Below, piece by piece: positions 57,507-60,468 of a stretch of DNA of 64,000 bases (positions within the stretch are counted from its first letter, which is position 1; each line of letters opens with the position of its first letter). The notes beneath the pieces are model-generated. The model worked only from the letters and a program-made list of their open reading frames with translations. It did not search any database and was not told where the DNA came from. Position numbers and translations under genes: made by a program. Location: assembly GCF_014696385.1 (NCBI RefSeq), contig NZ_JACJQB010000018.1, positions 1 to 64,000 on the forward strand, given 5' to 3'. Source of the stretch: Pseudanabaena mucicola FACHB-723 (lineage in GTDB: Bacteria; Cyanobacteriota; Cyanobacteriia; Pseudanabaenales; Pseudanabaenaceae).

Positions 57507-58583
57507 ATGAAAAGGCTGTCTTATATCAGTAAATTCTCACGAGCGCTTTCTAAAAAGGATATTGATGCGATCGCAAAAGTATCACAGACTAATAATTCGA
57601 GAGATGGTATTACGGGTATTTTATTGAGCTGCGGTGGGATTTTCTTTCAAATCCTAGAAGGCGATGAAGATAGAATTGATCATCTTTACAAGAAAATCTT
57701 AGGAGATGAAAGACATAATCAAATCCTGTGCCTCAAATCAGAGCTAGATGTTCCATCACGGAAGTTTCCTGAATGGTCAATGGAAGTGATTGTTTTAGAT
57801 GAAAACAATGACATCTTGCTACAACCGATCAAAGAACTATTACAAACCTTGGGAGAATCGCAATCAATTTTAGCCACCTACACTCAGTCAGGAGTATTGC
57901 AAGCCATCGAAAATGGCATTAATCCCCTTACCCTAAAACCACGCTATACCGAAAAGATAATTCTCTTTGCTGATATTATTTCCTACTCTAGTATCACAGA
58001 AAAATTACAGGTAACGGAAGTAGTTGAATTGCTCAATCAGTTCTTCACGATTTGTACGCAGGCGATCTCGCAGCGGGGTGGTGAAGTAACTAAGTTTATT
58101 GGGGATTGTGTAATGGCTCATTTTGATGGCAATCTTGCTGATGCGGCTGTACAAGCGAGTCTAGATATTCTTTCAGAATTAGAACTCCTTCGCAATCAAG
58201 CACCTGCTAATAGTCCATTCCGAATTCTCTATGTGGGAATTGGTTTGTCGAAGGGAACGGTTCTCGAAGGAAATATTGGTTCTCTTGCCAAAAAAGAATA
58301 TGCAATTATTGGCGATGCTGTGAATGTTGCCGCTCGTATCGAATCCCTCACAAGGCAATTAAATCGATTTTTGGTGTTTTCTGCACCTGTTCGTGAAGGA
58401 TTAAGCGAGCGCTGGCGACCTGTGCGGCTGGGTGATTTTAAGGCAAAAGGTAGAGAGGCAATTGTTGAAGCTTATTCAATTGATGATGTGTTAACTTTCC
58501 AAAAGTCAGATTTTCAGAAGTTAAAGCAGGAAATTCGGCAACATTTGGAACTGATTGGTAGTCAAACACCAGAGTTGGTGTGA
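57507..58583 (+). CDS. BLUF-domain class III nucleotidyl cyclase (photoactivated cyclase, OaPAC-like)
   Basis: 358 residues. BLUF flavin photoreceptor at 1-95: Y6, N30, Q48 (FFQILEG), W90 and M92 (FPEWSM), the same positions as in Oscillatoria acuminata OaPAC as I recall it. A helical connector (about 96-150) with PIKELLQTLGES leads to a class III cyclase domain (about 148-330): metal Asp D156 and D200 (FIGDCVM), adenine-side K196, and transition-state N273 and R277 (DAVNVAARIE). It should make cAMP in blue light. At the second purine-contact position, where OaPAC has Thr, this protein has A266 (KEYAIIGDA), so base choice or rate may differ. Confidence 0.92.
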   Translation: MKRLSYISKFSRALSKKDIDAIAKVSQTNNSRDGITGILLSCGGIFFQILEGDEDRIDHLYKKILGDERHNQILCLKSELDVPSRKFPEWSMEVIVLDENNDILLQPIKELLQTLGESQSILATYTQSGVLQAIENGINPLTLKPRYTEKIILFADIISYSSITEKLQVTEVVELLNQFFTICTQAISQRGGEVTKFIGDCVMAHFDGNLADAAVQASLDILSELELLRNQAPANSPFRILYVGIGLSKGTVLEGNIGSLAKKEYAIIGDAVNVAARIESLTRQLNRFLVFSAPVREGLSERWRPVRLGDFKAKGREAIVEAYSIDDVLTFQKSDFQKLKQEIRQHLELIGSQTPELV

Positions 58584-58650: not shown

Positions 58651-60468
58651 ATGATGTCAAACCTTTTAGATAACCGCTATCGCGTCACTAGTGTCTTGGG
58701 CAGTGGCGGCTTTGGGGAAACCTATTTGGCTGAAGACACCAAAATGCCCTCTAAGCGTCGATGTGTGATCAAGCAGCTTAAGCCCGTGGCTGATAATCCG
58801 CAAATGTATGAGCTTTTGCAGCAACGTTTTCACCGTGAGGCAGCAGTTTTAGAAGCACTGGGCGAAGACAGTCGCTATATTCCTAAACTCTATGCTAATT
58901 TTACTGAAAATGGATTATTCTATTTAGTCCAAGAATGGATTGATGGCATCACATTAACGGAAACAATTGAGCGTAGTGGCAAATGGAATGAAGCTGCGGT
59001 CAGGCAGTTAATGGTCAGCATTCTCCAAACCTTAGTCTATGTCCATGAGCGCGGTATTATTCATCGTGATATCAAGCCCGATAATATTATTTTACGTGAT
59101 GGCGAACCTGTACTCATTGATTTTGGTGCGGTAAAGGAAACTCTTAATGTCAGTACAATTCGGGGTGGAGTGCAGCAGCAAGCGCATTCAATTGTGATTG
59201 GTACGCCCGGTTTCATGGCATCAGAGCAAGCCGCAGGGCGACCTTTTTTTGCGAGCGATTTATATAGTTTGGCATTGACGGGAATCTTTGCTCTGACGGG
59301 TAAATATCCACAGGAACTAGGAACTGATCCGCAAACAGGGGAAGTGCTTTGGCAATCCGATGTCACAGGGATTAGTCCAGATTTACAAGGCATATTTGCG
59401 AAGGTATTGCAATTTGATCCTCGCGATCGCTATGGATCGGCAAGGGAAATGCTCGACGCATTACAGGCAAATGCTAATCCTGCACCAGTGATAGCACCTG
59501 TCAAATCGATTCCTGTTGCCCCTGCAATGTCGAATATGCAAACTGTGGCAGTGACTCCCAAAGGTTATCCACCGCTAACCACACCCAATCAGGTAATCCC
59601 CGATCAATCAGTTTATGTATACCAGCCCCAACAAACTTCTCAAAAAAAGGTGTTCGGGCAGTTGTTAGCAACGGTAATTGTTGGTGGTGCATTGGGTGCG
59701 GCGATCGCAACGGGGATTGTCGTTTCCCAAAATGGTGGCGTTGTGGCGCTGTGGAATAAAATCTTTCCCGCAAGTCAGCCCAATGCCAAGACATCCTTCT
59801 ATTTTCTGGCGGATTCAGCTTTTGCTGATCCTGACAAAGCCAGCATCAGGGTAGAGGAATTGCGATCGCAAGGCTATAAAGATGCAGGTCAGTTCTGGAT
59901 ACCTGACTACCCGAATTTAGGCGATAGCAAGTTTCAACAGGTATATACCAGTCAATTTCAAGATCTTGATAGCTGTATTACTAATCTAAAAAAGCATCGC
60001 ACCTTTGTTGGGGATGCCTATTGCGCTTTTGCTAGTCCTAACGATAAAGATCCAGTGCAAAGAGTTGCGGGTAGCGATTTGCCACCCACGGCTTCCCCAA
60101 CTCCCACCCCAACACCATCAAAAACAGCAACACCAGCACCCGCCAAACCTTCTCCTCAGCAAGCAATTAGAGCTTATTATGGTCTGATTAACGATCGTCA
60201 ATTTCAGACGGCATGGCAAAATCTCACGCCAAAATTTCAACGTGATGGAGCGAATGGTTATCAAACTTTTACAGATTGGTGGCAAAGCGTTGACAAGGTT
60301 GATGTACGTGGATTTCGAGTTGTGGAAATTAAAGATGATGTGGCAGTTATCGATGTTGATTTAACTTATCAGCAAGGAAGTAAAATTACACCTGAGACTT
60401 TGAGAATGAATTTAGTTTGGAACGAAGGTTCTAAACAATGGCAAATTAATACAACTAACAGGCAATAG
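58651..60468 (+). CDS. Membrane-anchored Ser/Thr protein kinase
   Basis: 605 residues. Hanks-type kinase (1-275): glycine loop LGSGGFGETY, K41, HRD at 138-140, DFG at 157-159, GTPGFMASEQ. A Pro-rich linker, one TM at about 335-358, an extracytoplasmic SPOR-like or lumenal region (about 380-460), a Pro/Thr linker, then an NTF2/IMS-like domain (about 500-605: AIRAYYGLINDRQFQTAWQNL...). It starts 67 bp after the BLUF-cyclase in the same direction, so co-transcription is likely; substrate unknown. Confidence 0.9.
   Translation: MMSNLLDNRYRVTSVLGSGGFGETYLAEDTKMPSKRRCVIKQLKPVADNPQMYELLQQRFHREAAVLEALGEDSRYIPKLYANFTENGLFYLVQEWIDGITLTETIERSGKWNEAAVRQLMVSILQTLVYVHERGIIHRDIKPDNIILRDGEPVLIDFGAVKETLNVSTIRGGVQQQAHSIVIGTPGFMASEQAAGRPFFASDLYSLALTGIFALTGKYPQELGTDPQTGEVLWQSDVTGISPDLQGIFAKVLQFDPRDRYGSAREMLDALQANANPAPVIAPVKSIPVAPAMSNMQTVAVTPKGYPPLTTPNQVIPDQSVYVYQPQQTSQKKVFGQLLATVIVGGALGAAIATGIVVSQNGGVVALWNKIFPASQPNAKTSFYFLADSAFADPDKASIRVEELRSQGYKDAGQFWIPDYPNLGDSKFQQVYTSQFQDLDSCITNLKKHRTFVGDAYCAFASPNDKDPVQRVAGSDLPPTASPTPTPTPSKTATPAPAKPSPQQAIRAYYGLINDRQFQTAWQNLTPKFQRDGANGYQTFTDWWQSVDKVDVRGFRVVEIKDDVAVIDVDLTYQQGSKITPETLRMNLVWNEGSKQWQINTTNRQ

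Follow-up and report, generated by a model that had tools for sequence, protein, structure and literature searches.

The question raised by this locus is whether a light-driven cyclase with Ala in place of Thr at one of its base-contact positions uses another purine nucleotide than its relatives. The DNA analyzed (the window) is a stretch of 64,000 nucleotides from Pseudanabaena mucicola FACHB-723. At positions 57507–58583 of its + strand there is an open reading frame, starting with ATG, for a BLUF-class III adenylate cyclase of 358 amino acids (N-terminus MKRLSYISKF) that is an ortholog of OaPAC. Altogether, the evidence makes it likely that this gene encodes a light-driven, cAMP-making cyclase of the OaPAC/bPAC type, in which Ala266 is tolerated and ATP is still preferred.

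Domain architecture and active-site residues

The BLUF domain comprises residues 1–93 (57507–57785, + strand; Pfam PF04940, E 1.1e-27) and is fused to a C-terminal class III cyclase domain made of residues 146–318 (57942–58460, + strand; Pfam PF00211 Guanylate_cyc, E 7.1e-17), which is the architecture of the OaPAC/bPAC type. In a phmmer comparison with the sequences of solved structures, OaPAC (5x4u, 4yus) was aligned without gaps across residues 1–356 with an E value of 2.5e-128, and bPAC ranked next. A chance match or a misread frame was ruled out, as the frame is open and this E value is far beyond chance. By its sequence, the window protein adds a new member to the OaPAC/bPAC family.

The conserved flavin-site residues Y6, N30, Q48, W90 and M92 were all read directly in the BLUF domain. 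The cyclase domain carries the residue set of a class III adenylate cyclase, encoded in every case on the + strand: the first metal-binding aspartate D156 (57972–57974), placed by the OaPAC alignment and in register with CaAC D457; the second one, D200 (58104–58106); the first base-contact residue K196 (58092–58094), the one for adenine N1, invariant in the family and equivalent to CaAC K497; and the transition-state residues N273 (58323–58325) and R277 (58335–58337). All five were read directly, as was A266, and K196, D200, N273 and R277 were aligned too. The Glu that guanylate cyclases display at the first base contact is absent, its place being taken by K196. At the second base contact, where Asp or Thr is typical of class III adenylate cyclases, though not universal, the protein has Ala266 (codon GCA, 58302–58304, + strand), while OaPAC and most relatives have Thr.

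With no gap in the OaPAC alignment, A266 lines up with Thr266 of OaPAC (Thr267 of bPAC). The structure of CaAC with an ATP analogue names K497, C566D, N573 and R577 (PMC5967339). The CaAC spacing 566-573-577 matches 266-273-277 of the window protein, and K497-D501 matches K196-D200, so A266 occupies the site at which, normally, a side chain serves as acceptor for the amino group of adenine. This placement rests on the alignment register, the AlphaFold model (mean pLDDT 69) being mostly above 80 in the cyclase domain, poor in the BLUF half and in residues 256–266, and too weak in the latter to place A266 alone. In a fold search, the best PDB matches of the model were OaPAC and bPAC, and its cyclase domain superposed on that of bPAC (5mbg) at 1.6 Å with a TMt of 0.95. 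The first-pass annotation, which had described an OaPAC-like BLUF-coupled cyclase with the five key BLUF residues, a complete class III set and Ala at the position of the base-contact Thr of OaPAC, was borne out in all these respects.

Distribution of Thr and Ala at position 266

The eight nearest orthologs in genome_contigs, from Pseudanabaena or from relatives of it that are uncultured or go under another name (76–83% identical), all have Thr266, with codon ACA or ACT. This suggested Ala266 to be a unique variant, a view that was overturned by searching 26 genomes of the genus. The BLUF cyclase gene was found in 23 of them, the other three giving no match. Thr was the common state, and Ala was found in seven gene copies: the window gene, G005, copy 1 of G012, and the second copies of G015, G022, G025 and G017. 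Ala266 is not unique to the window gene, as six other Pseudanabaena copies share it. The Ala codon is GCT in G012, whose nearest Thr relatives have ACT, and GCA in the other Ala copies; that Ala recurs, and with different codons, also makes it unlikely that A266 stems from an isolated sequencing error. Position 266 was occupied by Thr or Ala only in all BLUF cyclases compared, which implies constraint.

At least four independent changes between Thr and Ala have taken place, four being needed by the maximum-likelihood tree either with or without column 266. The grouping of the Ala type-1 rows (window, G005 and G012) was disfavoured (p-AU 0.027), and so was that of G005 with G012 alone (p-AU 0.0014). 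The codon pattern looks as expected of separate single transitions. Thr is probably the ancestral residue, because both OaPAC and the outgroup relative G253 have it. The latter (54% identity, Thr266) was the sole relative outside the genus in a phylum-wide protein search. No BLUF cyclase gene was detected in seven other genera of the family at the threshold used; plasmids contained distant cyclases only, and viral contigs gave no match.

Tandem copies and genomic surroundings

Tandem BLUF-cyclase genes occur between rpiA and the kinase gene at L026, L030, L032, L033, L034 and L050 (genomes G012, G015, G022, G025, G021 and G017, respectively), and the order of the copies varies between genomes. 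Wherever the site could be read in a tandem pair, one of the two copies differs from the usual active-site residues. The change is Ala266 for one copy each in G012, G015, G022, G025 and G017; in the G021 pair, which is Thr/Thr at 266, the second copy has R277K. This pattern is suggestive only, because it comes from about three independent lineages. The second copy of G017 (L050:1501-2253) is without BLUF domain, its cyclase part with Ala266 being still open. In G006, a metagenome-assembled genome, the BLUF-cyclase frame is broken between residues ~295 and 306 (L008:6001-7123, same as L044).

The window gene is flanked by a divergent rpiA and, after a 67-base gap, by a downstream Ser/Thr protein kinase gene (58651-60468). 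The order rpiA, BLUF cyclase, kinase is kept in most of the genus where the flanks are available. A promoter scan at the window gene yielded scores at chance level, and there was no terminator match. Besides the window protein, the genome of the window encodes one further, short BLUF protein. Its class III cyclase domains number 11, and so do its cNMP-binding matches, of which ten exceeded the cut-off; cAMP therefore has possible receptors.

Selection on Ala and Thr copies

The genes compared are under purifying selection. Among the type-2 Ala copies of G015, G022 and G025, the dN/dS of the cyclase domain was 0.008–0.017, so this Ala clade is under strong constraint; in those three genomes, the type-1 copies, with Thr, gave values from 0 to 0.042. 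The catalytic domain can thus carry Ala266 while under strong purifying selection. The overall dN/dS of the window gene versus its relatives was 0.043–0.071, within the range of Thr pairs. For the cyclase domain, the pairs with the window gene gave 0.059–0.108 versus 0.025–0.084 for the other type-1 pairs above 0.02, with synonymous sites near saturation.

Second base contact in other class III cyclases

A DNA pattern for the second-base-contact motif was run, in its Ala and Thr versions, on 244 genomes of the phylum. The Thr version matched 174 of them and the Ala version 9 (10 sites). At the ten Ala sites, the first base contact was Lys in eight, including the window gene, Glu in one (L061) and unassignable in one. 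Another of these eight (L062; G000:C23:151030-151067, - strand), with Ala at the second contact and Lys at the first, belongs to a further class III cyclase encoded in the genome of the window. L061 (G026:C32:3033-3070), from a distant member of the phylum, combines Glu at the first contact with Ala at the second, a guanylate-cyclase-like pair. Judging from these motifs, Ala at the second base contact is an uncommon but established state, usually accompanied by the Lys of adenylate cyclases. As the pairing of Ala and Lys turns up repeatedly in related cyclases, the residue at the second base contact was regarded here as free to vary, and Ala was not taken to exclude the protein from the adenylate cyclases.

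Residues peculiar to the window protein

Two other changes, F160Y and Y205H, occur in the window protein alone, at sites otherwise invariant in the 29 other sequences compared. Y160 (codon TAC, 57984–57986, + strand) replaces a Phe equivalent to F461 of CaAC, which is part of the loop binding the terminal phosphates, and H205 (codon CAT, 58119–58121, + strand) replaces a Tyr. Both could alter the window protein in ways absent from its Ala relatives, and sequencing error may be the source of the two codons. Y160 was rejected as a general compensation for Ala266, as the other Ala copies keep Phe160.

Proposed mechanism

We infer that the window protein binds flavin, depends on light and forms cAMP with preference for ATP. 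Within the OaPAC/bPAC family, it would be a photoactivated adenylate cyclase that is soluble and works as a homodimer. On absorbing blue light, the BLUF flavin would rearrange the Y6-Q48 hydrogen-bond network, and the signal would travel via the helix that follows the BLUF domain to the cyclase dimer. There, ATP would be converted to cAMP and pyrophosphate, with two metals held by D156 and D200, the adenine being read by K196 and the transition state stabilised by N273 and R277. Ala266 would represent a recurrent and selectively tolerated replacement of Thr, by which one base contact would be lost together with the Thr hydroxyl.

In CaAC, the adenine amino group is also accepted by the backbone oxygen of L567, next to the second site, while K497 donates to N1 (PMC5967339). 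The residue equivalent to L567 is I267, and both adenine contacts of the CaAC type are still possible in the window protein. With K196 and the residue-267 backbone carbonyl in place, the preference for ATP should persist with, at most, an altered Km or rate. It seems reasonable to interpret Ala266 as probably a tolerated variation with no substrate change, because close relatives, under strong selection, acquired Ala on several occasions. Perhaps its consequence is an altered Km, rate or dark activity.

Alternative interpretations

It is conceivable, but improbable, that Pseudanabaena toggles Thr and Ala, one of each per tandem pair, either tuning kinetics or the response to bicarbonate, or building mixed dimers with unlike active sites; the Y160 of the window protein might then supply a replacement hydroxyl near the substrate.

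Also improbable is an effect of Ala266 on regulation and not on base choice, the response to bicarbonate/CO2 being removed or changed, so that Thr/Ala toggling would tune the way in which the enzyme integrates light and inorganic carbon. The Thr at the second base-contact site has been proposed as the source of the bicarbonate/CO2 response in cyanobacterial cyclases. Structures of CyaC with bicarbonate are in the PDB (1wc5, 1wc6), and this interpretation would be in line with repeated changes at a site that is flanked by invariant residues, where Thr and Ala are the sole residues used and most tandem genomes have one copy of each. However, a literature search found no bicarbonate data for OaPAC or bPAC, and, since one transition is enough to turn ACN into GCN, the recurrence may be neutral.

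A relaxed or changed purine selectivity, which would make of this protein a natural light-driven cyclase also producing cGMP, is very unlikely. Class III cyclases contact the base through two residues, of which position 266 is one (PMC7384201), some guanylate cyclases carry Ala or Gly at the second site (PMC4215837), and L061 pairs Ala with Glu. Nevertheless, K196 is retained, Ala with Lys is recurrent and conserved, and the backbone contact to adenine should persist. Moreover, Ma1120 K101E/D157G, with both Glu and Gly, was still more specific for ATP (PMC4215837). The conversion of bPAC to a guanylate cyclase took K197E/D265K/T267G together, and the product was weak (PMC4569695). On the other side, bPAC T267Y is without activity, which shows that this position can be important, even if Tyr is a bulky residue; bPAC K197A still photoactivates (PMC8522238). 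According to the published mutants, base choice depends chiefly on the Lys/Glu position, where the window protein shows no change. So, the relaxation of purine specificity that the first-pass annotation had put forward as a possible outcome of the loss of the Thr side chain finds no support (the lower activity that it also mentioned is conceivable), and Ala266 with Lys196 kept is not expected to admit GTP by itself.

That the unusual residues A266, Y160 and H205, all located in the active site or close to it, together weaken an enzyme whose gene is being lost is very unlikely, even if decay is known in the genus (the BLUF-less G017 copy, the broken frame of G006 and the three genomes with no match), as the frame is open, all the catalytic residues are kept, the overall dN/dS is like that of relatives, and the somewhat higher values of the cyclase domain come with nearly saturated synonymous sites.

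Significance

BLUF cyclases are in use as optogenetic tools and, to our knowledge, few natural ones have been described. The Thr/Ala series offered by the genus, with 71–83% identity and matched tandem pairs, makes the role of the base-contact site testable without engineered mutants. If Ala lowered dark activity, shifted Km or changed the response to bicarbonate, this would be useful; a substrate switch is unlikely.

Comparison with known systems

Most other Pseudanabaena BLUF cyclases, including type 1 and tandem type 2, have Thr266, and the Ala266 of the window protein is common to G005, to copy 1 of G012 and to some type-2 copies. The full-length copies are those of the series just mentioned, and their genomic position is the same as that of the window gene. 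OaPAC of Oscillatoria acuminata (PDB 4yus, 5x4u) has the same domain order and length as the window protein, about 54% identity, and identical BLUF and catalytic residues, but Thr266, Phe160 and Tyr205 where the window protein has Ala266, Y160 and H205. The architecture is also shared by bPAC/BlaC of Beggiatoa (PDB 5m27, 5mbg), which in the fold search had about 50% identity; its numbering is offset by one, and it displays Thr267 and His266 in contrast to Ala266 and Tyr265 of the window protein.
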